A DNA stretch of 48,919 nt, taken from the NCBI GenBank assembly GCA_017474845.1, contig JAFVGS010000038.1, forward strand, positions 1 through 48,919, written 5' to 3'. Numbering within the stretch: the first letter of the stretch is position 1; each line of letters opens with the position of its first letter. Positions 21,961 through 48,919 of the stretch are shown one piece after another. The notes beneath the pieces are model-generated. The model did no database searches, was not told the DNA's origin, and saw nothing but the letters and a program-made list of their open reading frames with translations. The position numbers and the translations under genes were made by a program. This DNA comes from Prevotella sp. Its GTDB lineage: Bacteria; Bacteroidota; Bacteroidia; Bacteroidales; Bacteroidaceae.

Positions 21961-22140
21961 CGATTATTGGGGAGAGACTTAGAATCCCCGTGGATTGAAG
22001 TGTGAATAGCGGCGTCTTTGGCCGGGCGCAGTGGTTCGTGAATCGTCAGTCCAGAAAGCCTGGAGGGAGTAATCCCGAAGGGGACGTTCGTTAGACTTGC
22101 AGCCGGGTTTAGACTCTCGGATGTGGGTTTATGTGCGTAC
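21961..22140 (+). ncRNA. Structured 5' leader RNA of rplM, candidate uL13 autoregulatory leader
   Basis: Between the promoter and rplM lies about 180 bases of GC-richer, hairpin-rich sequence with no reading frame of note. Visible stems are GGGGA/TCCCC (21969-21989), GGGAGTAATCCC near 22065-22076 and CCGGGTTTAGACTCTCGG near 22103-22120. Ribosomal protein operons are commonly autoregulated through such leaders, and a leader of this kind has been proposed for uL13 in Bacteroidia (from memory, not checked). Whether this one belongs to that family needs a covariance search. Confidence 0.55.
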
Positions 22141-35816: not shown

Positions 35817-35923
35817 ACAAATAATATTTTTTATACATACCACCACTCAACCCATACCTTTGTCCCAAGGGGAAAAAGGTAAAATACCCAATATGTGGTA
35901 TACGGAATGACATATCGAGGGGA

Positions 35924-35954
35924 TTGTGGGAGTGCGGAAATCGCCGTACCTTTG
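35924..35954 (+). promoter_or_regulatory. Promoter of the SusCD/exported-enzyme operon
   Basis: TTG (35924-35926), 20 bases, then TACCTTTG (35947-35954) is an excellent match to the Bacteroidota consensus. The transcript would carry about 200 bases before the first large gene at 36160, including the Cys-rich upstream frame. Confidence 0.8.
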
Positions 35955-36038
35955 CACCGTCGAAAAGACATAATAACAACATAAAGATATAGTAACATAC
36001 GAACAGATTAAAAAATAACAATTAAAAAAGAGAGAATT

Positions 36039-36224
36039 ATGAAACGAATGTGTAATATGCGAATGCGTGAGTATTGTTGTTGCCGCCAGATGATGGCAAT
36101 GACGACCAATGAGAGTATAATATATATAATAGGTATAAATCAAGTAAAAAAGAAACAATATGAAAAGGATAGCATTAACAATAGCAGTATTACTGAGTAT
36201 CAATATCAGCACCGTTTGGGCTGA
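36039..36224 (+). CDS. Candidate Cys-Cys-Cys leader peptide (upstream ORF)
   Basis: This 61-codon frame starts at an ATG about 80 bases into the transcript and reads MKRMCNMRMREYCCCRQMMA at its start. Three consecutive Cys codons (TGT TGT TGC, 36075-36083) and a fourth Cys at position 5 stand out, since Cys is rare. The frame runs 65 bases into the binding-protein gene in a different register, so its translation would affect initiation at 36160. Weak hairpins (GCCA/TGGC at 36085-36097) follow the Cys codons. Polycysteine upstream frames act as cysteine-responsive attenuators in mycobacteria; a similar role here is inference. It may also be a chance frame. Confidence 0.4.
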   Translation: MKRMCNMRMREYCCCRQMMAMTTNESIIYIIGINQVKKKQYEKDSINNSSITEYQYQHRLG

Positions 36225-37074
36225 AGGGGCAGAGGCTGGCGAACTCAGTCCTGAGAGTAACGCAACCAATGCAAGCAGCGTGCGCTATGTAAAGGCACCG
36301 AGATTTGCCCGCCCACTGTTAGAGAGATGGATCACTGAATATGCAAAAACACAGCCTGGCGTAGAATTCCAGATCGCCAAGGGCAACCAGAACCAGGGCA
36401 ACGCAGACCTGAATGTTGTATTCGACAACCAATCCGCCAACACAAAAGTCTTTAGTCATAATGTTGTATTTTTCGGAGAGTTCGCCGTGCTTCCCATCAC
36501 AGCCAGCGGCAGTGAGGCTGCCAGAGTGCTGGAGGGCAAGCACTTGAACTCGAAGAAACTGAAGCAACTCTTCTTCCTCAACGACGACTTCGACGAAGAT
36601 GTGAAGAAGGTGAAGGCCTTTGAGAACCTTATTGTATATAGCGGCAGCAATGCCACGTCGGTAGCCGCCTCGTTCGCCCACAACTTCGGCGAAGAGAGCA
36701 GCAGTTTCCGCGGCAAGCGCATCTCTGGCGACGACCTCTTCCTGAATACCGCCCTGTCGAAGGACCCGCAGGGAGTATCGTTCAATGCCTTGCCGAATAT
36801 CTTCGATCTGCAGAGCCGTCACATCAAGAGCGACCTGACCATCATCGGCATCGACGTGAAGAAGGGTCTTGAGGAAACATTCTCAGACAAGGCCACTCTC
36901 GATGAGATGATCAACGCTTTGGAGAATGGCAAGGTGTCAGAAATCGCCGTCGAGAGGATTGGCGTGAGCTATAATGAGGGCGACGATGCCGTCAACCAGT
37001 TCCTGAAGTGGATACTCGAGAATGGTACGAAGTATAATCACGAATATGGATTGTTGAATCTGAGCAAAAAGTAA
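36160..37074 (+). CDS. Exported periplasmic-binding-protein-like protein (PstS-like fold)
   Basis: The 304-residue product has a Sec signal (MKRIALTIAVLLSINISTVWA). The body looks like a type 2 periplasmic binding protein of the PstS/ModA kind: RFARPLLERWITEYAKTQPGVEFQIAKG near the start, VFFGEFAVLPITASGSE as the first crossover, and VSEIAVERIGVSYNEGDDAVNQFLKWI towards the end. No ABC transporter genes are adjacent; instead susC follows 113 bases later. Binding-protein-like partners of TonB-dependent systems occur in Bacteroidales, but the ligand is unknown. An inverted repeat separates it from susC and could set different expression levels. Confidence 0.72.
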   Translation: MKRIALTIAVLLSINISTVWAEGAEAGELSPESNATNASSVRYVKAPRFARPLLERWITEYAKTQPGVEFQIAKGNQNQGNADLNVVFDNQSANTKVFSHNVVFFGEFAVLPITASGSEAARVLEGKHLNSKKLKQLFFLNDDFDEDVKKVKAFENLIVYSGSNATSVAASFAHNFGEESSSFRGKRISGDDLFLNTALSKDPQGVSFNALPNIFDLQSRHIKSDLTIIGIDVKKGLEETFSDKATLDEMINALENGKVSEIAVERIGVSYNEGDDAVNQFLKWILENGTKYNHEYGLLNLSKK

Positions 37075-37085
37075 TCCATCTATGT

Positions 37086-37169
37086 GTTTACGGTTTACAG
37101 TTTACAGTTGATATGACTAGAGGCTGTACTACCGCAGAGGTAATCATCTGTAAACCGTAAACTGTAAAC
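37086..37169. repeat. GTTTACAG-unit inverted repeat between the binding protein and susC
   Basis: The left arm (37086-37107) is three tandem units of GTTTACG, GTTTACA and GTTTACAG. The right arm (37148-37169) is the complement with the order of the G and A variants swapped, so 20 of 22 positions pair. A 40-base core holds GGCTGTACTACCGCAGAGG. It occupies most of the gap between two genes of one operon. Confidence 0.8.
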
Positions 37170-37187
37170 TAAATAACATTCAGACTT

Positions 37188-40100
37188 ATGGTAAAAAGAT
37201 TGTTTATTGCAACATTCGTTGCGATTAGCCCCCTGTTGGCTATAGCGCAAAACCTGATTACAGGTCATATCACAGATGTTCGCACTGGTGAACCCCTGAT
37301 TGGTGCATCCGTGATTGTAAAGAGTGAAAAGGGTCAGGGTGTCGTGACCGACTACGATGGTAACTTCTCCCTCCAGACGAAGGTGGAGGCTCCTTTGACC
37401 CTCCGTGTGGAATATGTAGGCTATCGCGCCCTCGATGTGGATGTCTATGACTTCGAGGAGCACGTGGAGATATCGTTGATTGATAACGCCAGCAAACTTG
37501 ACGAAGTGGTGGTTGTGGGATATGGTGCCCAGAAGCGCCTGGAGTTGACCAGTAGCATTTCGTCTGTAGGTGATGAAATCCTCCGTCAGCAGAATAATTC
37601 TGTTGAGAGTGCCCTGCAGGGTGCTGTGGCAGGTCTGAACGTCACACAGACCTCTGGTCAGCCTGGTGCTGCCAGCATCATCCGCATCCGTGGTGGTAAT
37701 AGTATCACTGGTGGTAACGAACCGCTCTACGTGATCGATGGCTTCATCGTGTATAACGATCCTGCCTCTACCCGTACAGGTGCCAAGACCAGTGATGCCA
37801 CACTTGACCCCCTGTCGTTCCTGAACCCCTCGGATATCGAGAGCATCGAAGTGCTGAAGGACGTTTCTGCTACCGCTATCTATGGTACACGTGGTGCCAA
37901 TGGTGTGATTATCATTACCACGAAGAAAGGCTCCCACGGCAAGAACAACATCAGCTATAATGCCACCTTCGGTTGGAGCAAGATCGCCAGAAAGCTTGAT
38001 TATCTGAATGCCACTCAGTGGGTTGACCTTTGGAACGAACTCTATCAGAATGGTGAAGTGGGTTATTCTATTGATACTCCTACAGAGAGCTACGACTGGC
38101 AGGATGCCGCTCTGCGTACCGGTTTCTCTCAGGAACATCAGCTCTCCTTTGTCGGAGGTGACGAGATTTCGCGCTACAATATCAGTGGTGGATTCAAGAG
38201 TCAGGATGGTATTCTAAAGGGAACAGGCCTGAAGCGTTATGTAGGTCGTATCAATTACGAACGCAATCTTTTCCCCAACCTGCTCGTAGGACTGAATGCC
38301 AATGGCGCCTATAATAAGGTTACTGGTGTAGCTGACAACAGCGGTAGCATGTTTGCGCCCAGCCCTTGGTTCGCTGCTATCTCTCACACACCTTATACTT
38401 CTATTTACAATGCTGACGGATCTTACAATAACGATCCAACACCTACCAGTGTAGATATCTATAATGGTAGGGTAGGTAATCCCATCAGTGATTTGGAGAA
38501 TACTAAGGCTGAGACAGAAAATACGCGTGTCATTGGTACTGGTTTTGCTGAGTGGACCGTCATTCCGCAGTTGAAGCTCAAGGCCAGCGTAGGTGCTGAT
38601 TTGTCGAACACCCGTCAGAGTTTCTATGCTCCCTCATACACCTCTTCCGGTCTTGCTTATAACGGCTATGCCTCTGTAGGTCAGACGAAGACCAACACCT
38701 GGCAGACGGAATATACCGCCACCTATAATAATGTGTTTAACCGTGTACATTCCGTCAACGTCCTGGCTGGTTATACAGCCCAATATACTGATCGCAGCAG
38801 TTTGGCCACGACGGCCTATGGCTTTAGCAACGATGCCACTGGTTACGATAACCTGGGAGCTGCCGCTACAACACTCCCGTCGGTTAGCAGTCATATCGTC
38901 TCAACACTGCAGTCGTGGATCGGACGTGTGAACTATAGTTTTGACTCACGCTATAACCTCTCGGCTACCCTGCGTGCCGACGGTAGTAGCCGTTTCGCTA
39001 AGGATCACCGCTGGGGTTGGTTCCCCTCACTGGGCGCTTCCTGGAACATCGACCGTGAGAAATGGCTGCATCTTAGCAAGAAAGTCGATTTCATCCAGTT
39101 GCGCGCTTCTATTGGTACAGTGGGTAATCAGGAGATTGGTGATTACCAGTTTGCCGCCAACGTCGTTCCTAAGACAGTTATTGTCAACAACCAAAAGGCC
39201 ACCAGTTATATTATCGACAACAAGTCGAACCCTGATCTGAAATGGGAGAAGACCACCTCGTATAATATCGGCCTGAGCACAGGCTTCTTCCACAATCGTC
39301 TGACGGTGACCCTCGATGGCTATTATAAGAAGACTAGCGACCTGCTGCTCAATGTGCCCATAGAGCAGGTAACAGGTTTCTCTACCGTCCTGCGTAATGT
39401 AGGTTCCGTCACCAACAAGGGTGTGGAACTCGAGGTTGGCGCCGTACTCATTGACAAGAAGGATCTGCGTTGGAACGTCAATGCTAATATTGCCCATAAC
39501 AAAAACGAAGTGACTGATCTGGGTAACTCAGAATACTTCTTGCCCGACTTCCAGTCTATCGGTACCCTTCAGTACATTAACCCGCTGATCGTGAAGGTTG
39601 GAGAGCCCCTCGGTACTTTCTATGGTTACCGTTTCAAAGGAATCATCCAGACTGGCGAGGATCTCAGTAGTCTGCCCACCCAGACGATTTCGGCTGTAGA
39701 ACCAGGTAATCCAAAATTTGAGGATGTCAACAACGACGGTGTGGTGAACGAGCAGGACCGTGTCATCCTCGGTAATATCCAGCCCAAGTTTACCTATGGA
39801 TTCAATACCAAGGTGGCTTATAAGAACTGGGATCTGTTCGTGAACATCAGCGGCAGCTATGGTAACAAACTCTTCAACGCCTTGGCTTGTCGATTGGATC
39901 GTGGTAATGGTTACTACTATAACCCATTGGCAGAGGTGGCAGACCGTTGGACGCCTACCAATCCAAGCAATACCATTCAGAAGGCAACCAGCGCTACATC
40001 GATTTATGCCGATGACCGTTTCGTAGAGGATGCCAGCTATCTGAAGTTCCGTAACATTCAGTTGGGTTACACCCTGCCTGTGCCACAGATTACCAAGGAC

Positions 40101-40280
40101 GCCAAGCTACGCCTTTATGTATCGCTGCAGAACTTCTTTACCATCACGGGCTATACTGGTTACGATCCAGAGGCCAACCGCAATGGTATTGACGAGACCA
40201 GTGCACTCTATCAGGGCGTCGATTATGGTGCATATCCTGCCGCCAAAACCGTTCTCGTAGGATTTAACGTAACACTGTAA
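37188..40280 (+). CDS. SusC-family TonB-dependent outer-membrane transporter
   Basis: The 1030-residue product has a Sec signal (MVKRLFIATFVAISPLLAIA) and an N-terminal carboxypeptidase-regulatory-like domain (about 25-100, GHITDVRTGEPLIGASVIV). The TonB box/plug start LDEVVVVGYGAQKR and the plug with VIDGFIVYND and GTRGANGVIIITTKKG follow, and then a 22-strand barrel ending in VLVGFNVTL. It imports a ligand captured by the adjacent SusD protein, using energy from TonB. The neighbours are not glycosidases but exported URO-D-like, ATC-hydrolase-like and M20 enzymes, so the ligand is probably a small molecule or peptide-like compound rather than a polysaccharide. Confidence 0.95.
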   Translation: MVKRLFIATFVAISPLLAIAQNLITGHITDVRTGEPLIGASVIVKSEKGQGVVTDYDGNFSLQTKVEAPLTLRVEYVGYRALDVDVYDFEEHVEISLIDNASKLDEVVVVGYGAQKRLELTSSISSVGDEILRQQNNSVESALQGAVAGLNVTQTSGQPGAASIIRIRGGNSITGGNEPLYVIDGFIVYNDPASTRTGAKTSDATLDPLSFLNPSDIESIEVLKDVSATAIYGTRGANGVIIITTKKGSHGKNNISYNATFGWSKIARKLDYLNATQWVDLWNELYQNGEVGYSIDTPTESYDWQDAALRTGFSQEHQLSFVGGDEISRYNISGGFKSQDGILKGTGLKRYVGRINYERNLFPNLLVGLNANGAYNKVTGVADNSGSMFAPSPWFAAISHTPYTSIYNADGSYNNDPTPTSVDIYNGRVGNPISDLENTKAETENTRVIGTGFAEWTVIPQLKLKASVGADLSNTRQSFYAPSYTSSGLAYNGYASVGQTKTNTWQTEYTATYNNVFNRVHSVNVLAGYTAQYTDRSSLATTAYGFSNDATGYDNLGAAATTLPSVSSHIVSTLQSWIGRVNYSFDSRYNLSATLRADGSSRFAKDHRWGWFPSLGASWNIDREKWLHLSKKVDFIQLRASIGTVGNQEIGDYQFAANVVPKTVIVNNQKATSYIIDNKSNPDLKWEKTTSYNIGLSTGFFHNRLTVTLDGYYKKTSDLLLNVPIEQVTGFSTVLRNVGSVTNKGVELEVGAVLIDKKDLRWNVNANIAHNKNEVTDLGNSEYFLPDFQSIGTLQYINPLIVKVGEPLGTFYGYRFKGIIQTGEDLSSLPTQTISAVEPGNPKFEDVNNDGVVNEQDRVILGNIQPKFTYGFNTKVAYKNWDLFVNISGSYGNKLFNALACRLDRGNGYYYNPLAEVADRWTPTNPSNTIQKATSATSIYADDRFVEDASYLKFRNIQLGYTLPVPQITKDAKLRLYVSLQNFFTITGYTGYDPEANRNGIDETSALYQGVDYGAYPAAKTVLVGFNVTL

Positions 40281-40319
40281 GAATTGAAAATTGAATATTG
40301 AGAATTGAAAATTGAAGAT
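40281..40319 (+). repeat. GAATTGAAAATT short phrase between susC and susD
   Basis: Near-copies of GAATTGAAAATTGA fill the gap. They resemble the TTGAGAA run at 12911-12948. Confidence 0.6.
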
Positions 40320-40320
40320 T

Positions 40321-41910
40321 ATGAAAAAGAACATATCTGCATATATCCTCTTGGCAAGCCTGTTGTTCACAGGTTGCGCTGACTTGGACCAGACTTCCAT
40401 CAGTTCTATCGACAAGGATAATTTCTATCAGAGCAAGGAAGATATTGAGACTGCCATTAATGGTATTTACCAGGCATTCACCATCGACGGCTTCTATGGT
40501 ATGTATAATAATCAGAGCATCTACTTTAATGATCTGCAGTCGGATTACGTCAAAGCGGGTGCACAGACCAACTCGGCCCATATCCGTGAATTGTCGAATT
40601 TCGCCATACAGCCAACCAACCTCTTTGTAGGCTATGCATGGAAAGAACACTATATGGCCATTAACCGCGCCAATGTGGTGATTGAGAAAGTCGCATCGGC
40701 CTCATTCCTCGACGATCAGCACCGTCAGGACTATACCAACGAGGCTCGTTTCTTAAGAGGTCTGATGTACTTTAACCTGGTACGTTATTTCGGAGGAGTG
40801 CCCATCGTACTTCATGATGGCGAAGGCGAAGGTGCTGCCAGAAACAGCGTTGATGAGGTCTATCGTCAGATCGTAGAAGATCTCACGGCTGCCGAGGGTC
40901 TGCCTTCTGACTATACAACGTTAGACGGTAAGGCATCGAGCCTGGCAGCATCGGCCCTTCTCTCAAAGGTTTATCTGGTATGGGCACAGACATCGAGCCC
41001 TGAAGGTAAGTCCAGTCAGCGTGATTTCTACCAGAGGTCCATCAGCTATGCTGATAAGGTTATCAATTCTGGTAAGTATAAGCTGCTCGACAAGTTTATT
41101 GACAACTGGTCTGTCGACAAGAAGAATGGTGCAGAACACATCTTTTCTATCGAACATGACCGCACGATTAATGCTAATGTAACGGGGCACTGCACCTTTG
41201 CTACCAACTGGAGCGACTCAGAACCAGTGCTGCTGGCCACCAGCGACAAGTACTACGAGCAGACCGACCCGAAAGATCAGCGTCGTGACGGATCCTGGGC
41301 CAAGCGCATCTATAATCCGAATACGGGTACCGACTTTGAGTTTACCATCCCTCGTTTCCGCAAGTATATCGATTCGCTCAACTTTGCCAATCCTGCTTCA
41401 AGTGGTAATGCGGCCGGGCAGTCAACCAACACCGTGATTATCCGCTATGCTGAGATCCTGCTCATCAAGGCTGAGGCAGAGAATGAGCTGAATGGTCCGA
41501 CGGATGCTGCTTACGATGCCATCAACCAGGTGCGCCGTCGTGCGTACTGGAGTCCGTATCTGAACATCCAGAATACACCGTCCGATGGTTCAGATTTGGA
41601 ACTCTCAGGACTGACTCAGGAGCAGTTCCGTGAGCGTCTGCGTGAAGAGCGACGTCTGGAGTTTGTACTTGAAGGACAACGCTGGTTCGATCTCATCCGT
41701 TGGCATATCTTAGTAAAATACGTGAAGTCTAACACCCCTACTGATGAAGAAACATTGGGTACAAAGACAACAAAGATTCAGAATGTTTCCAAGAAGAACT
41801 ATCTTCTGCCTCTGCCACAGGAGCAGATCATCCTGAATCCGAATCTCGAGCAGAACTGGGGTTACAGCGGCGAATCCGGTGACGGCCCTTACGGAGCAGA
41901 GTTTGAATAA
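40321..41910 (+). CDS. SusD/RagB-family outer-membrane lipoprotein
   Basis: The 529-residue product has a lipoprotein signal (MKKNISAYILLASLLFTGC) and the SusD tetratricopeptide-like architecture: SKEDIETAINGIYQAFTIDG near the start, EARFLRGLMYFNLVRYFGGVPIV (about 135-157), and the C-terminal LREERRLEFVLEGQRWFDLIRW. It forms the surface lid of the SusCD complex and determines ligand capture. The start is the ATG at 40321; an upstream in-frame TTG at 40312 lies in the repeat. Confidence 0.95.
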   Translation: MKKNISAYILLASLLFTGCADLDQTSISSIDKDNFYQSKEDIETAINGIYQAFTIDGFYGMYNNQSIYFNDLQSDYVKAGAQTNSAHIRELSNFAIQPTNLFVGYAWKEHYMAINRANVVIEKVASASFLDDQHRQDYTNEARFLRGLMYFNLVRYFGGVPIVLHDGEGEGAARNSVDEVYRQIVEDLTAAEGLPSDYTTLDGKASSLAASALLSKVYLVWAQTSSPEGKSSQRDFYQRSISYADKVINSGKYKLLDKFIDNWSVDKKNGAEHIFSIEHDRTINANVTGHCTFATNWSDSEPVLLATSDKYYEQTDPKDQRRDGSWAKRIYNPNTGTDFEFTIPRFRKYIDSLNFANPASSGNAAGQSTNTVIIRYAEILLIKAEAENELNGPTDAAYDAINQVRRRAYWSPYLNIQNTPSDGSDLELSGLTQEQFRERLREERRLEFVLEGQRWFDLIRWHILVKYVKSNTPTDEETLGTKTTKIQNVSKKNYLLPLPQEQIILNPNLEQNWGYSGESGDGPYGAEFE

Positions 41911-41964
41911 AGTAAAAAGGTAAAAAAGAAAATAGTTTAGAGTTTATAGTTTAAAGTTTATAGA
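41911..41964 (+). repeat. GTAAAAAG and AGTTTATAG short phrases after susD
   Basis: Two phrases follow one another: AGTAAAAAGGTAAAAAAG, then repeated TAGTTTA and AAGTTTATAG units up to the ATG of the next gene. Confidence 0.55.
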
Positions 41965-41965
41965 T

Positions 41966-43006
41966 ATGAAAAAGAGTTTTTCAAGAATCATCGCCATTGC
42001 ACTGCTTTTTGTAGCAGGCGTACAGACCATCAGCGCACAGTCGCAAGTAGCTAACAGCAAGCGTGAACGCATCCTTCAGGTGCTCGACCAGAGTCGTCCC
42101 AACGAGTATGTGCCCGCAGCCTTCTTCCTCCACTTCGAGAACAAGCTTGGACGTAAGGCCGTACAGGATCATCGTGATTTCTACCGTGCCACGAACATGG
42201 ACTTCGTGAAGGTGTTCTATGAGATCGTTGTGCCCCAGGTGGACATCCAGTCAGGCAAGGATTGGGAGAAAGTGCCCGTCTATGGTGAGGATTTCTTCGC
42301 ACCCCAGATAGCCGTCATCGAGGATCTGGCCCGTGAGTTCAAGGGCGAGGCCTTTATCCTGCCCACCGTCTATTCTCCGTTGGCACTGGCCTCTCAGACC
42401 CTTGGTCGTGGAAAGGACCTGAAGAAACTGGCCGAGGAGAACCCTGCAGCCTTCGGTAAGGCCATCAAGAACCTTTCGCTCTCCATCGAGAACTACCTGC
42501 GTGCTGCCCGTAAGCGTGGTGCCGACGGTTTCTATGTGTCCAGTCAGGGTGGCGATGGTAACTCCCTTTCGCCTGAGGTTTGGAATAAGTACGTTCGCCA
42601 GTGGGACAAGCATGTGTCTGAGGTGGCCAACGAGATTGGCGAGATCAATATCCTCCACATCTGCGACTACGGTACACCGTTCAAGAATGCTGAGGCCCTC
42701 TATGCCTTCGTCGATTATCCCGCCAGCATCATCAACGTACCCCTCAACTTCTCTGACGGCTCTACCCTTAACCTGAAGGAGGCCCAGAAACGTTTTGGCC
42801 GTCCCATCTTTGGTGGACTGGAGCGTCTGGGTGTCATTGCTATAGGTACTGTTGAAGAGGCCAAGGCCGCTGTCGATAAGGTGCTGGAGAATGCATCGCC
42901 CAACTTCATACTTGGTGCTGACTGCACCGTGCCTGGTGAGACCGACTGGGAAAAACTGCGTGCTGTTATTGACTACGCCCACACTTGGCGTCAGACACAT
43001 AAGTAA
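41966..43006 (+). CDS. Exported URO-D/methyltransferase-superfamily protein with HxC...C motif, paralogue 1
   Basis: The 346-residue product has a Sec signal (MKKSFSRIIAIALLFVAGVQTISA) and a barrel resembling uroporphyrinogen decarboxylase and the corrinoid-dependent MtaA/MtbA/CmuA methyltransferases. Visible blocks are VPAAFFLHFENKLG, FILPTVYSPLALASQ, RAARKRGADGFYVSSQGG, INILHICDYG and FILGADCTVPGETDWEKL. H231, C233 and C320 reproduce the HxC...C zinc-thiolate motif of the methyltransferase branch rather than the Arg/Asp residues of true HemE. HemE and MtaA are cytoplasmic, so export is unusual. A periplasmic thiol- or methyl-handling enzyme is inferred. The next gene is a paralogue. Confidence 0.8.
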   Translation: MKKSFSRIIAIALLFVAGVQTISAQSQVANSKRERILQVLDQSRPNEYVPAAFFLHFENKLGRKAVQDHRDFYRATNMDFVKVFYEIVVPQVDIQSGKDWEKVPVYGEDFFAPQIAVIEDLAREFKGEAFILPTVYSPLALASQTLGRGKDLKKLAEENPAAFGKAIKNLSLSIENYLRAARKRGADGFYVSSQGGDGNSLSPEVWNKYVRQWDKHVSEVANEIGEINILHICDYGTPFKNAEALYAFVDYPASIINVPLNFSDGSTLNLKEAQKRFGRPIFGGLERLGVIAIGTVEEAKAAVDKVLENASPNFILGADCTVPGETDWEKLRAVIDYAHTWRQTHK

Positions 43007-43033
43007 TTCTATGAAACAATAAAAAAGCGATTG

Positions 43034-44047
43034 ATGATGAACAAGCATTTCTTTGGTATTCTGGCGCTATCTTCGCTGGTTGTAGCGGCTTGCACAACAA
43101 GTAAGCAGGAAGATGCATTGCCCAATAAGCGTGAGCTAATAGAGCGGGTATTGGATCAGTCGAAGGCACCCGAGATTATTCCTGCTGCTTTTTTCCATCA
43201 TTTCCCTGATAAGTTCGGTCCCAAGGCCGTGGAAGAGCATATCGCCTTCTTCCATGAGACGGGTAATGATATCCTGAAAGTGCAATATGAGACTCTGCCT
43301 CCTCAATGGGAAATCAAAACGGCCAAGGATTTTGATAAGGTAACAGAGTTGTCTGCTCAATACTTTGAACCACAACTGGAAGTGATAGAAGCGTTGGCAA
43401 AGCAGTTGAAAGACTCTGCACTGATCATTCCCACCGTTTATTCTCCCCTGCTCATTTTGCATCAGGCAGCCGGAGATGAGGTCGATGAGGTGATTAAGAA
43501 GTATCCGGCTGCTGCCGAGCCTGCGTTTGAGAAACTGGCCAAGAGCATTGCAACCTATATTCGTGCTGCCCGTCAACGTGGTGCCGATGGTTTCTATGTC
43601 TCATCACATGGCGGTAACATCGAGTTTTTCGGACAGGACTCGGAGGTATGGACAAAGTATCTTCGTAAGTGGGATAAATATATTTCAGAGGTGGCTGATT
43701 CTGTAGCACCGCTCAATATCCTGCATATCTGTGGTGGTGAATATGAGAATCTCGACGCATGGGCAGATTATCCTGGTACCATCATTAACCTGCCTGAGTT
43801 TGATGTTGAGAAGTTACGCCACGCCCAAGAGGTGTTCAAGCGTCCTATTCTTGGCGGATTAGACCATCATGGCGTCCTTATTAACGGAAGTCTTGAGGAA
43901 GTCTATGCCCAGGTGGATAAGGTTCTCGCAGAAGGACCAACAAACATAATACTTGGAGCTAATTGCACAGTTCCTGACTCTACCGCCAGCGATCGTCTGC
44001 ATGCTATCGTTGATTATGTTCACAATTGGCGTCAGGCTCATAAATAA
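43034..44047 (+). CDS. URO-D/methyltransferase-superfamily lipoprotein with HxC...C motif, paralogue 2
   Basis: The 337-residue product is a lipoprotein (signal ending LSSLVVAAC) and aligns along its length with the preceding protein: PAAFFHHFPDKFG, LIIPTVYSPLLILHQ, RAARQRGADGFYVSSHGG, LNILHICGG and IILGANCTVP. The zinc-type residues H231, C233 and C311 are kept. The region around the first paralogue's FKGEAF and the loop after YVSS differ. Lipid anchoring of one copy and free export of the other suggests that they act at different places or as a complex. Start at the first of two tandem ATGs (43034 and 43037); a TTG at 43031 is less likely. Confidence 0.8.
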   Translation: MMNKHFFGILALSSLVVAACTTSKQEDALPNKRELIERVLDQSKAPEIIPAAFFHHFPDKFGPKAVEEHIAFFHETGNDILKVQYETLPPQWEIKTAKDFDKVTELSAQYFEPQLEVIEALAKQLKDSALIIPTVYSPLLILHQAAGDEVDEVIKKYPAAAEPAFEKLAKSIATYIRAARQRGADGFYVSSHGGNIEFFGQDSEVWTKYLRKWDKYISEVADSVAPLNILHICGGEYENLDAWADYPGTIINLPEFDVEKLRHAQEVFKRPILGGLDHHGVLINGSLEEVYAQVDKVLAEGPTNIILGANCTVPDSTASDRLHAIVDYVHNWRQAHK

Positions 44048-44053
44048 TGAAGT

Positions 44054-44899
44054 ATGAATAGGAGAGAGTTCTTTGTGAAATCTGCGAAGGCAGTCATACC
44101 CATTACAGGGGCTGCACTTCTCATCGCTAATCCCGCTATAGCCAAAGTGTTGGAGCAGGCAGGTGACGGGAGTAAACTCCCGCAAGGAACTTTACCCTAT
44201 TCCTTCAATGGCTTCAATGAACGCGTACAGGCCTATATTGTGGCCCGCTACTACGTCAGACTATCGACATCTTTTGGTCATCAGGGTCGCGAAACGTTTA
44301 AGTTGGCTACACGCATCTATGCAGAACAACGAGGACATCGTATGGCCCAGCGGGCATTGGCTGATGGTCAGGAACTGACAGTCGCAACCTATCACCAATA
44401 TGGAGAATGGGTGCCCACAGAAGAGAGCAAACAACGTGGAGAATCTCTTGATCAGGAGGTCTTATGGGATAGACCGTATTATGCTTTCAAGGTAAAACGC
44501 TGTCCTTGGGCCATTCAATTTAGGGAAATGGGACTGCCTGAAGCAGGACTGGCTTACTGCAAAGACTTGGATGCGTCCATATATAGGGGATTCAACCCTA
44601 CCATTAAATATGAGACGCGCCAAACGCTACACGATCATGATTGTTGTATCCAATGTTCCCCTGGGACAAGAATAACATCACAAGAACTATCATGTCCGAA
44701 GAAAAAATCAGGTCTGCGATCTTTTGAGTACCACTGTGCACACAGTTATTGGACATTCCGTCAGGTGCTGATATCTGTTCTGGGCAATAAAGGCAAAACG
44801 CTATCAGAAGAGGTCTTGGAAGATGTCCGACGAGATCTGGGACAAACATTTGTAGAGACGCTACAAAAGTATAAAGATACGGATTTTAATGTGGCTTAA
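44054..44899 (+). CDS. Tat-exported protein resembling L-2-amino-thiazoline-4-carboxylate hydrolase
   Basis: The 281-residue product starts MNRREFFVKSAKAVIPITGA, a twin-arginine signal (RREFFVK) with a hydrophobic stretch, so it is probably exported folded. Two-thirds in it has KDLDASIYRGFNP followed by THDHDCCIQC-type sequence (C197, C198, C201). That arrangement recalls the ATC hydrolase family, with its DxD...G and ...GDDCC... blocks. ATC hydrolase opens 2-amino-thiazoline-4-carboxylate on the way to L-cysteine. The match is by eye and partial; the family also contains members of unknown function. It starts 6 bases after the previous stop. The next gene encodes an M20 amidohydrolase, the class that completes the ATC-to-cysteine route. 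Confidence 0.6.
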   Translation: MNRREFFVKSAKAVIPITGAALLIANPAIAKVLEQAGDGSKLPQGTLPYSFNGFNERVQAYIVARYYVRLSTSFGHQGRETFKLATRIYAEQRGHRMAQRALADGQELTVATYHQYGEWVPTEESKQRGESLDQEVLWDRPYYAFKVKRCPWAIQFREMGLPEAGLAYCKDLDASIYRGFNPTIKYETRQTLHDHDCCIQCSPGTRITSQELSCPKKKSGLRSFEYHCAHSYWTFRQVLISVLGNKGKTLSEEVLEDVRRDLGQTFVETLQKYKDTDFNVA

Positions 44900-44910
44900 A
44901 AAGAAAGAAA

Positions 44911-46380
44911 ATGAAGAAGATTATAGGATTAATATTGTTGGCAGGATTAACATTCAGCAATAGTGCAATCGCAAAGAAAGACAAAAAGGGTAATGCCAAG
45001 GCAAAAGTGGCATTGGATTATCTCAATAGTAGCTTTTCTACGTACGATAAACTCCAGAAGACCATTTGGGCCAATCCGGAGTTAGGCTTTCTGGAAACTA
45101 ATAGCAGTGGACTTCTGAAACAACATCTGCGTGAATATGGTTTCACCATAGAAGAAGGCGTTGCAGGGATGCCAACGGCATTTGTTGCAACATATGGAAG
45201 TGGAAAGCCGGTCATCGGACTCTTAGCAGAATTCGATGCTCTGCCTGGGTTGTCACAAGATACGGTACCCTTTCGTAAGCCTCTCAAGGAAAACGGTGTA
45301 GGACATGGCTGCGGTCATAATACCTTCGGTGTTGCCTCTTCAGCCGCTGCGGTCTCACTGAGCAAATGGCTGGTAGCCAACAAACAAAGTGGCACTATTA
45401 AGGTCTATGGCTCTCCTGCCGAGGAAGGCGGAGCAGGAAAAGTGTACCTGGTGCGCGAAGAATTGTTTAATGGTGTTGACGTAGTGCTTGACTGGCATCC
45501 CTCCAGTGAGAATGCTGTTTCTACGAATGGGGGTACTGCTATGGTCATGGTCGATTATAAGTTTTATGGAAGACCTGCCCATGCAGCAGGAAACCCATGG
45601 AAAGGCCGTTCCGCACTTGATGCTGTGGAGGCACTCGACTATATGGTCAACCTCTTGCGCGAACATGTCCCCACCTCATCACGTATCCACTACGTGATAC
45701 CAGAAGGAGGAATTGCCCCCAATGTGGTGCCCGAATATGCGCGAGTATCCTATTACATCCGCAGTCCCAAGCGCGACATCCTCAACACGCTGACAGAGTG
45801 GATTGACTCAGCTGCTGTAGGTGCTGCCAAGGGTACACAGACACGTGTGGAGAAAGAACTTATAGCTGGCACTTACGAACGCCTACACAACAAAACACTC
45901 TCAAAGGTCATCCAGAAAAATCTGGAAACGGTGGGTGGTGTTATCTACGACGAACGTGAGCGTAAGTTCGCAGAACAACTGATTCGTGCGACTGGTAATC
46001 CTGACTCTATTATCAATTTTGCTGCAAAAGTGCAACCTCTGGCTGAATTCCCTGAAGAGGGTAGTGGTGGCAGTAGCGACGTTGGTGATGTGTCGTGGGT
46101 CGTGCCTTTGGCAAGTTTCGGAGCAGCGACCTTTATTCCTGGAAGCCCAGGCCATAGTTGGCAGAATGTGGCAGCTGATGGAACAACCATTGGTACGAAG
46201 GGTCTGCTCAATGCCAGTCGTGTCTTTGCCTTGACAGCCATCGACCTGCTGACAGATAGTAAGTTACTTCAAGCTGTAAAGGACGAGTTTAAACAGTCAA
46301 CAAGTCCTGATTTTAAATATATCCCTCTTTTGGGTGATCGCAAGCCTGCATTGGACTATCGTATTACAAAAAACGAATAA
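44911..46380 (+). CDS. Exported M20-family amidohydrolase (AbgB/N-carbamoyl or N-acyl amino acid hydrolase type)
   Basis: The 489-residue product has a Sec signal (MKKIIGLILLAGLTFSNSAIA) and a full M20 dizinc peptidase fold: WANPELGFLE, LLAEFDALPGL, GHGCGHNTFG (H132, H136), YGSPAEEGGAGK (catalytic E171, ligand E172), VDVVLDWHPS, the lid dimerisation domain (FYGRPAHAAGNPWKGRSALDA), SSDVGDVSWVVP and PGHSW. It is closest in pattern to p-aminobenzoyl-glutamate hydrolase subunit B. M20 relatives also include N-carbamoyl-L-amino acid and N-carbamoyl-cysteine hydrolases. It should cleave an amide in the periplasm. It lies 11 bases after the ATC-hydrolase-like gene. Confidence 0.87.
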   Translation: MKKIIGLILLAGLTFSNSAIAKKDKKGNAKAKVALDYLNSSFSTYDKLQKTIWANPELGFLETNSSGLLKQHLREYGFTIEEGVAGMPTAFVATYGSGKPVIGLLAEFDALPGLSQDTVPFRKPLKENGVGHGCGHNTFGVASSAAAVSLSKWLVANKQSGTIKVYGSPAEEGGAGKVYLVREELFNGVDVVLDWHPSSENAVSTNGGTAMVMVDYKFYGRPAHAAGNPWKGRSALDAVEALDYMVNLLREHVPTSSRIHYVIPEGGIAPNVVPEYARVSYYIRSPKRDILNTLTEWIDSAAVGAAKGTQTRVEKELIAGTYERLHNKTLSKVIQKNLETVGGVIYDERERKFAEQLIRATGNPDSIINFAAKVQPLAEFPEEGSGGSSDVGDVSWVVPLASFGAATFIPGSPGHSWQNVAADGTTIGTKGLLNASRVFALTAIDLLTDSKLLQAVKDEFKQSTSPDFKYIPLLGDRKPALDYRITKNE

Positions 46381-46386
46381 TGTCTC

Positions 46387-47304
46387 ATGAAAATGAATAA
46401 CAAGAATAACATTCTTCCATATCTGATAGCACTCCTCTTGGGGGTATTCCTCTCTGCTTGCAGCGGAAACGATGATCTCGTGCCTATTAACATTCCTACG
46501 GGCGACGATGAGGTATGCTGCACCCAGGACGACGAGAATAAGATCAGTCAGATCCTCGCTGGCTACAAGGAGGTGACAGGGCTATCACGACAGAGCGCTG
46601 GTGATTATACCATTAAGGTATATGGGCGCAGTGCCTGTCTTTCTGTAGGCTACAACGATCTCTATTTCGCTGTGGAGAAGACAGAGAGCGGCCGCCACTT
46701 GAAGGACATCGCGATCAGCGACCTGTCGCCCCTGATGGATATGGATAAGATGAAACATAGTACGCCTATCGCCAACAAGTTCGACCAGATAGAGAGTTTC
46801 CCCATCTATCATACCTGGGTGGCTCCGCTGATGGCTGGTGGATGGACGTTGTCGTTCAACTATCGCATCAAAGACGAGTTTGGCTCTCTCGCTGGTGACA
46901 CGATCACGGTAGTTGCAACGCCAGAGGGTCAGGCATGGATCAAATCCTTCAAATGGAACGATCAGACATATTACTTGACCTTGGCCAGTCCACAGAACCT
47001 GAAGACGGGCGTGAACACGATAAGCGCTTATGTCTCGGGAAAAGGGGATGACAGTACTCTGCCATATCTTCCTGCGAGTGAGGTGTTTACCATCGATATC
47101 TATCCTACCATGCCCGACATGGGTAACCATACCTCGCCCAACAACGAACCACTCCAACCACAAGATGATGGCAGTTATCAAGGGAAGTTGAATCTTACCA
47201 TGACAGGGGTGTGGGATATCCATCTTCATGTCAAGGATGCGTCAGGCAAGACTGTAGCGGGAGGAGAGGAATTAAGTGATCTTTATTGGACTATTTCAAT
47301 TTAA
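46387..47304 (+). CDS. YtkA/FixH-like lipoprotein with Met/His clusters, possible copper binder
   Basis: The 305-residue product has a lipoprotein signal (ending GVFLSAC) followed by DDEVCCTQDDE. The body has two Ig/YtkA-like beta domains. The first contains LMDMDKMKHSTPIANKF, and the second (about 220-305) has YPTMPDMGNHTSPNN followed by GSYQGKLNLTMTGVWDIHLHV, close to the YtkA/FixH pattern. Clustered Met and His suggest copper binding. The gene lies 6 bases after the M20 gene and 13 bases before a copper-type TonB receptor, which supports metal handling. The function is inferred. Confidence 0.72.
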   Translation: MKMNNKNNILPYLIALLLGVFLSACSGNDDLVPINIPTGDDEVCCTQDDENKISQILAGYKEVTGLSRQSAGDYTIKVYGRSACLSVGYNDLYFAVEKTESGRHLKDIAISDLSPLMDMDKMKHSTPIANKFDQIESFPIYHTWVAPLMAGGWTLSFNYRIKDEFGSLAGDTITVVATPEGQAWIKSFKWNDQTYYLTLASPQNLKTGVNTISAYVSGKGDDSTLPYLPASEVFTIDIYPTMPDMGNHTSPNNEPLQPQDDGSYQGKLNLTMTGVWDIHLHVKDASGKTVAGGEELSDLYWTISI

Positions 47305-47317
47305 TCTTTTTCTTTAG

Positions 47318-48790
47318 ATGTTAGTGTTAGTCAGTCTTATTAGTTTATTATGCCTGCAAGACACTGTATTCAAGGAGACGGCCATCGATGAGGTGGTCGT
47401 TTCCTCTACTATGGGCTCTGGGAAAAAGGCTGTCAGCAAAGGGCGTGTAGCCAGCATCGACGAGCATCTGGGTAAACTCTCGAAGGTGGAGATGGTACGC
47501 CGTGGTAACTATGCCTGGGAGCCCGTAGTCAATAACATGGCTACCGAACGTGTATCTACTACCATCGACGGCATGAAGATATTCTATGCCTGCACAGACA
47601 AGATGGATCCCGTGACCTCGTATGTGGAGAGCAGCAACCTGCAGCGTATCAGTCTCAACTCAGGGCTTGACGGCAACCCGCAGGCGACGGGTAACATCGG
47701 TGGCAGTATAGACTTGAAACTCCGTCGTGTGGGGTTCGATGCTAAGTCGTCTGAGTATAATGCTTCCGCTGGCTATGAGTCGAATGGTCATGTGCAGGTA
47801 TATGGTGCCGATGCCGCCTTCTCCTCACACCGTTTCTACACCAATTTCGGCGTGTTCTACCGTCATGCTGACAATTATAAGGCTGGCGGCAATGAGACGG
47901 TCAACTTCTCACAATTCCAGAAGACCAATGCCTTTGCCAATATCGGCTGGCAACCTGCGGACAATCATATCGTGGAGGCAACGGCTATCTACGACATCGC
48001 CACCGATATAGGTTATCCTGCTCTGGCGATGGATGTGAAGAGGGCCGAGGGCATCATCACCTCACTATCCTATCGTCGCGAGCATATTCAGGGCCTGTTC
48101 CATCGCTGGGAGACGAAGGCATACTACAATCATATCACTCATGACATGGATGACACCAAGCGTCCCGATGTCATCATCCACATGGACATGCCTGGGAGTA
48201 GCAGCACGACAGGACTTTACAGCCTGCTACATGGCACCAAAGGCAGTCATTATTTCCAAATGAACCTTGACGGTTATTACAACACGCTTTTTGCTGATAT
48301 GACGATGTATCCAGATAAAGGGAAACCTATGTACATGCTCACTTGGCCTGATGTCGGTACGTTCAATACCGGATTGGCCTTTACTGATGATATGGCCATT
48401 ACCAGTCACCACCACCTCCGTCTGTCGGCAAAAGGAGCCTGGCAGCACCGGCAGATCAACAATGACGAGGGCTATCAGGCTTTGAGCATCTATTTCCCTG
48501 GTATGGACAAAGGTAACTCACGGTTTATCAGCCGTCTGGCAGTCAGCTATGCCTATGAGCATAGTGGCTGGGCGATAGCTGTTGGCACTGGCTATGGCAC
48601 ACGCGCTCCAACAGTTACAGAGAGTTTTGGCTATTTCCTGAATAACACTTTCGACCAGTATGACTATATCGGTAATCCGTATCTTAAGAATGAGAAAGCC
48701 ATAGAAGCCAATGCGTCAATAGGCTACGAAAAAGGATTGGTTAGAGTGAAGGCCGAGACAAATGCCTTCTTCTTTCAGGACTACTACTGA
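47318..48790 (+). pseudogene. Copper-type TonB-dependent receptor, truncated by an insertion sequence
   Basis: The 490-codon frame begins with a short hydrophobic signal (MLVLVSLISLLCL). It has a TonB-box/plug start (IDEVVVSSTMGSG), plug sequence STTIDGMKIFYACTDKMDP and many barrel strands. C92 and M96 (CTDKM) form the CxxxM motif of OprC/NosA-type copper receptors. H288-M289-D290-M291 (IIHMDM) may correspond to that family's second His/Met site. The frame stops at FFFQDYY, well before the last barrel strands (full-length relatives are about 650-700 residues), where insertion-sequence-like DNA begins. The product would lack the C-terminal strand needed for outer-membrane assembly, so it is probably non-functional unless the ancestor is intact elsewhere. 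Confidence 0.8.
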
Positions 48791-48919
48791 TGCGATAAAA
48801 TCGCGTTAGGTATAAATATTCAAAATAGAGTGAGTTCTTTGACAGATTGATTGATATTGACAGAGTCACGTGGCTTGGTGATGAGTTCCCTGAGAGTGAT
48901 CTTCTCCAGCGCAGAGATT
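48787..48919 (-). mobile_element. Right-edge insertion sequence, one end only
   Basis: Receptor-like coding sequence ends near 48787. What follows has a small palindrome GCGATAAAATCGC (48792-48804) at the junction, then about 15 bases, then a minus-strand reading frame that enters from outside the window. This is the structure of an IS 3' end. The exact boundary, target duplication and family cannot be set from one end. Confidence 0.65.
48820..48918 (-). CDS. C-terminal fragment of a probable transposase (partial)
   Basis: On the minus strand a frame open at the window edge reads ISALEKITLRELITKPRD and ends KELTLF at the stop 48822-48820. The length inside the window is 32 codons. It stops about 30 bases before the junction with the disrupted receptor gene, which is the usual position of a transposase stop relative to an IS end. 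The family is not recognised. Confidence 0.55.
   Translation of the reverse strand: MSALEKITLRELITKPRDSVNINQSVKELTLF

Follow-up and report, generated by a model that had tools for sequence, protein, structure and literature searches.

The window, by which we mean the whole stretch of DNA analysed here, is an entire contig of 48,919 bases (JAFVGS010000038.1) from a Prevotella sp. genome of 2.15 Mb that is 58.9% complete, and it carries towards its end nine genes on one strand, preceded by a short leader open reading frame (ORF) rich in Met and Cys codons (Table 1). The original prediction, made from the sequence alone, had placed here a binding protein, SusC, SusD, two URO-D-superfamily proteins (UroA and UroB), an ATC-hydrolase-like protein, an M20 amidohydrolase, a Met/His lipoprotein and a copper-type TonB receptor. 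The ORFs and the Pfam and NCBIfam profiles bore out the nine genes, their place and their families, and the URO-D-like and ATC-like assignments held in the profile searches. Its gaps of mostly 6-25 bases were found for five of the eight intergenic distances (in order 113, 31, 55, 24, 6, 11, 6 and 13 bases) but not for those of 113, 31 and 55. By inspection, the N-termini have the appearance of Sec, lipoprotein or Tat signals, as had been proposed, although that of the receptor is ambiguous. The SusC and SusD genes, adjacent and co-oriented, make this a SusCD uptake locus. As had been predicted, no glycosidase or other carbohydrate-active enzyme family was found among the nine proteins by Pfam and NCBIfam, so that the locus is not a polysaccharide utilization locus (PUL) in the usual sense; nor was any corrinoid-binding family found among them. 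The earlier description overlooked the leader and an SLC1 symporter gene (PF00375) that is present in 35 of 46 loci though not in the window, and it took as intact the last gene, which is truncated at the contig end.

By tblastn we counted the genes in 45 related loci (L numbers), which were collected by similarity to UroA, a choice that biases the co-occurrence of UroA with SusCD upward. The closest UroA relatives are Prevotella metagenome-assembled genomes, many of them labelled with ruminant gut organs. Of the relatives, 44 were found to have SusD, 41 SusC and 35 the binding protein; contig ends account for several of the absences. With the window included (46 loci), the YtkA-like lipoprotein and the copper-type receptor were each present in 15, and the ATC-hydrolase-like and M20 genes in four each, always paired. 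All nine genes stand together in the window and L006 only, and conservation of the gene set in other genomes holds for the core, made up of the PstS-fold binding protein, SusC, SusD and the exported URO-D/MtaA-fold proteins, and not for the full set. To assign URO types we used motifs in the called ORFs, which gave 13 loci with the UroB type, 8 with a further UroC type and four untyped; the gene caller takes the longest ORF and masks UroA in L012, L016 and L030, SusD in L016 and SLC1 in L038. A URO match at 1e-40 was obtained in 5 of 393 sampled genomes of the order, the window's included, and at 1e-60 in 11 of 301 genomes of the family.

The leader starts 121 bases 5' of the binding-protein gene, and a leader precedes this gene in 32 of the 35 loci that could be tested, namely those in which its 5' end is complete (36 including the window, minus L016, which is cut). 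Within the first 35 codons the 32 leaders hold 9 to 15 Cys and Met residues, a content matched by none of 200 base shuffles per upstream region, which preserve base composition only. Over the first 30 codons Met amounts to 26.1% and Cys to 14.2%, against 0.4% for Leu and 0.2% for Phe, and both Cys codons are used. When both strands of the 45 relatives (746 kb) were searched as a wider control, 41 ORFs passed the filter, 30 of them being these leaders and 11 lying elsewhere. The Cys codons are found 70 to 142 nt 5' of the binding-protein start, and the leader stop falls at +49 past this start in 14 loci and at +64 in 13; the other five of the 32 differ, among them L031, the sole leader without overlap, with its stop at -76. 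The leaders form two groups, unlike in length and order, with Cys runs and many Met common to both, and the binding proteins downstream are about 40-45% identical between the groups. For the two leaders tried (window and L042) no Pfam or NCBIfam match was found, DUF2946 included, and no hydrophobic stretch, signal sequence or proline-rich end was seen in the leaders. Amino-acid leader-peptide attenuators have a short 5' ORF rich in the relevant codons, and the leader resembles them in being short and in its runs of such codons; it differs from them in that two amino acids are involved, that it overlaps the first gene, that the operon is of the SusCD kind and that no terminator was found. In Bacteroides thetaiotaomicron, 5' untranslated regions have been reported to contain small ORFs "reminiscent of leader peptides" (PMC7366714), and clues of leader attenuation have been reported for amino-acid biosynthesis operons of Flavobacterium (PMC9723704).

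The single promoter of the original prediction is supported by the relatives. The TACCTTTGCA box of the window (35947-35956) recurs in 30 of the 32 loci with a leader, at 44-143 nt 5' of its ATG, while the remaining two carry close variants (L043 TATCTTTGCA, L031 TAATTTTGCA); the chance expectation for TAnnTTTG is 0.084 per 220 nt of a single strand. We take it, with the element 5' of it, to be the -7 and -33 regions of a Bacteroidetes-type promoter. A promoter/terminator scan gave nine sigma-70-like sites, and an Rfam search gave no riboswitch at the operon.

Table 1. Features of the operon and its surroundings in the window
Feature	Position	Strand	Evidence or remark
Presumed Bacteroidetes-type promoter	35923..35956	+	ATTGTGGGA (-33 region), TACCTTTGCA (-7 region)
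Met/Cys-rich leader ORF, 61 codons	36039..36224	+	MKRMCNMRMREYCCCRQMMAM...; overlaps binding-protein gene start in other frame
Exported substrate-binding-protein-like protein, PstS/ModA-type fold	36160..37074	+	AlphaFold2 (AF2) model and Foldseek
Inverted repeat, 84 bases, between genes 1 and 2 (binding protein/SusC)	37086..37169		hairpin, arms GTTTACGGTTTACAG...CTGTAAACCGTAAACTG
SusC/RagA-type TonB-dependent transporter	37188..40280	+	TIGR04056 872 bits (cut-off 368)
SusD-type lipoprotein	40312..41910	+	PF07980 140 bits
UroA, exported URO-D-superfamily protein	41966..43006	+	LHIC...GADC site; URO-D profile 68 bits (cut-off 24)
UroB, URO-D-superfamily lipoprotein-like protein	43031..44047	+	LHIC...GANC site; PF01208 61 bits (cut-off 24); alignment
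ATC_hydrolase-family protein	44054..44899	+	Tat-like signal (RREFF); PF14196 63.5 bits (cut-off 28.1)
Exported M20 amidohydrolase, HmrA-like	44911..46380	+	TIGR01891 233 bits (cut-off 154); PF01546 39 bits
YtkA-like Met/His/Cys lipoprotein	46387..47304	+	PF13115 39 bits
OprC/NosA-like TonB receptor, truncated	47318..48790	+	490 of ~655 codons; TIGR01778 86 bits
Possible end of IS4-family element, or contig-end artefact	48784..48919	-	32-aa frame; contig ends at 48919

UroA and UroB belong to the URO-D/MetE superfamily by fold and profile. The conserved HxC...C site, noted in the original prediction, aligns with that of MtaA (4ay7), LHIC with LHIC and the Cys of GADC with a later Cys (E 0.0047), and we take this His-x-Cys...Cys to furnish the zinc ligands of the MtaA/CmuA family. 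They share the site with MtaA but are exported, are 15% identical, and stand in an operon without the corrinoid protein or folate module of MtaA, MtbA, CmuA and MetE. The cut-off for the MtaA/CmuA family proper (TIGR01463, 235 bits) was not reached (44 and 47 bits), and neither was that for HemE (TIGR01464, 303 bits; UroA 18 bits, UroB unlisted). In the UroC paralogues (L015:7190-8260, L026:8902-9978, L028:11070-12134 and others) the last Cys, at the third metal-ligand position, is replaced by Asp (GADD), which possibly alters the metal site or the reaction. Distant exported URO-D homologues were also seen in other Bacteroidales (L079, L081, L082, L083), where the context is another one: the neighbouring genes appear to encode fucosidases, other enzymes acting on glycans or a flavoprotein with a Tat signal.

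Furthermore, we compared the SLC1 symporter with E. coli sequences under their RefSeq names. In the 33 complete copies, and in aligned copies from other genomes, transmembrane segment 8 (TM8) has Glu in place of the Arg of GltP and TcyP; SstT (Ser/Thr) likewise has this Glu, and an NGCA stretch resembles TcyP, the identity to SstT and TcyP being only 21-27%. The TM8 Glu shared with SstT makes an acidic substrate less likely and points to a small neutral amino acid, perhaps cysteine. When we looked at SLC1 neighbourhoods in other genomes (12 loci of the 33 with a match among 301 genomes), nine of the 12 carried YtkA and/or the receptor and four also a SusD homologue, while a leader was found in none of them, the filter matches in four of the 12 all being internal to larger ORFs. 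Since YtkA, receptor and SLC1 occur elsewhere without these URO-D genes and without the leader, they are a separate module, and the leader goes with the binding protein, SusCD and the URO genes.

The earlier idea of an envelope operon for uptake and processing that is tied to sulfur amino acids gains support from the leader, the HxC...C alignment and the neutral-amino-acid type of the symporter. We argue, at about even confidence, that the locus is an organosulfur scavenging operon of ruminant-gut Prevotella that responds to sulfur amino acids, that is, one regulated by Cys and Met. From the observed gene content, conservation, promoter box, leader composition, HxC...C alignment and symporter residues we infer regulation by amino-acid supply, the zinc, the substrate, the chemistry and the direction of flux as follows. 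A single transcript would run from the promoter and begin with the leader, rich in Cys and Met codons. With charged Cys- and Met-tRNA available, ribosomes would traverse the leader and with it the binding-protein start codon, which would hinder initiation there, and when these tRNAs are scarce they would stall on the leader's Cys and Met codons, leaving that start free and allowing the operon to be expressed. The periplasm would then receive, through SusCD, an organosulfur compound, perhaps an amino acid conjugated as a thioether or thiol, or else something small and peptide-like. There, exported zinc-thiolate enzymes of MtaA/MetE fold (UroA, and in some strains UroB or UroC) would break or transfer an S-C bond, the operon supplying neither a cobalamin protein nor a folate partner. 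The few strains with ATC-hydrolase-like and M20 enzymes might use them to open further cysteine precursors, and the released small neutral thiol amino acid would enter through the SLC1 symporter where the strain has one. More tentatively, and on balance rather doubtfully, all these parts may make up one sulfur utilization locus, with SusCD for organosulfur uptake, periplasmic zinc-thiolate TIM-barrels that cleave or transfer S-C bonds independently of cobalamin and folate, an overlapping leader that reads Cys and Met supply jointly and a cysteine-type SLC1 symporter fed by the pathway.

Several observations weigh against the scavenging operon. The Met/Cys runs of the leader suit Cu(I) binding too, and none of the solved enzymes predicts the substrate. 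As regards a switch, no terminator appeared in the promoter/terminator scan and no shared alternative structure in single-sequence folds of five leaders. Three loci are leaderless (L007, L022, L040), with the promoter box near the gene in L007 and L040 and none in L022. The SLC1 gene is absent from the window, and its incomplete genome gave no match at E 1e-90. Of the distant exported URO-D homologues, for which 12 loci were inspected (L079-L083, L198-L204), only that of L198 has a SusC match nearby. Moreover, partial scans found no leaders at other genes, so that no wider sulfur regulon is visible. In these scans a Cys-run pattern, which misses the window's own leader with its only three consecutive Cys, gave 17 matches and no leader in the window's genome, and 68 matches in the genomes of L005 and L026, 30 of which were scanned without a clear leader. 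A promoter-linked pattern gave 34 matches in three genomes, and the 30 scanned returned the known leaders of the L005 and L026 genomes and a weak second candidate, L115; this frame of 73 codons, from the L040 genome, contains several Cys and Met and follows a TACCTTTGCA box. A stricter pattern had three matches in 251 family genomes, all rejected; the frames of L069 and L070 (49 and 33 codons) are unlike leaders, and L071 lies inside a 195-codon frame.

The chief rival, which we hold to be unlikely though deserving of weight, is a copper acquisition operon in which the leader would be a nascent copper-sensing peptide of CruR/CutF-like function, SusCD and the URO-D-like proteins would handle a copper-thiol complex, and copper or copper-thiolates would be moved by the YtkA lipoprotein, the OprC-like receptor and the symporter, whose signature stretches contain Cys and Met. 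The richness of the leader in Met and Cys is in keeping with this, and CruR is reported as a copper-sensing upstream ORF 5' of a TonB transporter gene (PMC9426467). The leaders resemble the CruR/CutF type (DUF2946; PMC9426467, PMC9973294) as Cys-bearing small ORFs 5' of transporter genes, but differ from it in that the two leaders tried gave no DUF2946 match and that no signal sequence or proline-rich end was seen, and their lack of a hydrophobic stretch likewise speaks against the copper reading. The receptor has the OprC site, with CxxxM (C92/M96 in the window) in 13 of 14 copies, the exception being cut by the gene caller, and HxM (H275/M277) in all 14, at a spacing of 183 as compared with 180 reported for OprC (PMC8610252). 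It nevertheless stays far below the TonB-copper cut-off of TIGR01778 (472 bits), also in the intact copy of L008 (120 bits). A second TonB receptor, present in eight of the 46 loci (L004, L007, L013, L023, L027, L030, L032, L035) and never alongside the OprC-like one, is adjoined in six of the eight by a small HMA-type gene (the HMA profile was run on L023 only), which again favours copper. On the other hand, the leader with binding protein, SusCD and URO genes also occurs in loci without either copper-type receptor, and the 12 SLC1 loci of other genomes lack the leader though nine carry YtkA and/or the receptor. The receptor of the original prediction thus retains its copper-type site but belongs to the separable module, and a copper chelate as the substrate is possible without being needed.

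The scavenging operon has also to be set against two less probable readings. On the first, the locus would be a SusCD system of the ordinary kind that serves a glycan or a peptide, the URO-D-like proteins having an unrelated or structural role and the link to sulfur being incidental; SusCD is described for glycans in a review (PMC11658791), and the distant URO-D homologues lie near apparent glycan enzymes, but the lack of carbohydrate-active families among the nine proteins, the leader composition and the symporter type make this quite improbable. Compared with other SusCD/RagAB (PUL-like) loci, the operon has in common the adjacent SusC and SusD, the exported enzymes downstream and the shared promoter region, and it differs in its lack of glycoside hydrolases, its URO-D enzymes and the Met/Cys leader and PstS-fold protein at its head. 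Least probable, in our view, is that the leader serves merely for translation coupling or mRNA stability and owes its Met/Cys richness to ancestry and not to sensing. The stop positions shared by 27 of the 32 leaders would fit this, in loci that share descent, but both leader groups, for all their divergence, have kept Cys runs and many Met. In searches of the open-licence PMC literature we recognised no description of a SusCD-URO-D operon or of a Met/Cys leader in Bacteroidota. SusCD loci are read nearly by reflex as glycan systems, and this operon suggests that the same machinery may serve sulfur scavenging in ruminant gut bacteria, where Cys and Met supply matters to the nutrition of the animal. 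It also places exported proteins of the MtaA/MetE fold in a genetic context, and a leader rich in both sulfur amino acids offers a direct handle on a Cys, Met or copper response.

The original prediction had further paired an ATC hydrolase with an N-carbamoyl-cysteine amidohydrolase to yield cysteine. The first passes its Pfam cut-off, while the M20 enzyme is HmrA-like: its nearest solved chains are HmrA (3ram), Xaa-Arg dipeptidase and aminobenzoyl-glutamate-type amidohydrolases, TIGR01891 is the only NCBIfam model above cut-off, and the N-carbamyl and allantoate models give 11-21 bits, which places it outside the carbamoylase subfamily; the pair, moreover, is confined to four of the loci. No solved relative of the ATC-hydrolase-like protein was found by sequence. 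PF14196 is a broad family, and none of 20 other places with it (in 15 of 247 genomes, flanks up to about 1.5 kb) had an M20 or URO neighbour. 2-Aminothiazoline-4-carboxylate (ATC) arises from cystine. It is reported as a cyanide metabolite (PMC11269370), and recovery of cysteine from ATC by this protein is conceivable.

Of the module genes, YtkA preserves C44, C45, M117, M119, H124, M242, M245, H248, M272 and H279 in all 15 copies. The receptor, whose likeness to NosA we presume, is 651-686 aa long in the relatives except L014 (cut by the gene caller); in the window its homology to L008 (93%) ends at 48783 and the frame closes at 490 aa. The last 136 bases (48784-48919) are dissimilar to the intact relatives, and their 32-aa minus-strand frame weakly matches the C-terminus of a Prevotella nigrescens IS4 family transposase (56%, E 0.2), so the gene may be interrupted by an IS4-type element, or the end of the contig may be misassembled. 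The binding protein has no Pfam family above cut-off; the best Foldseek matches of its model (AF2 confidence score, pLDDT, 69) are phosphate binding proteins, followed by molybdate receptors and LysR-type domains, and with this fold match alone we dropped a true phosphate receptor. The stretch around the inverted repeat that follows its gene (37075-37187) has a folding energy of -33.3 kcal/mol (z -3.7). Elsewhere in the window, an L13-Bacteroidia ribosomal protein leader (Rfam RF03127) lies at 21969-22044.

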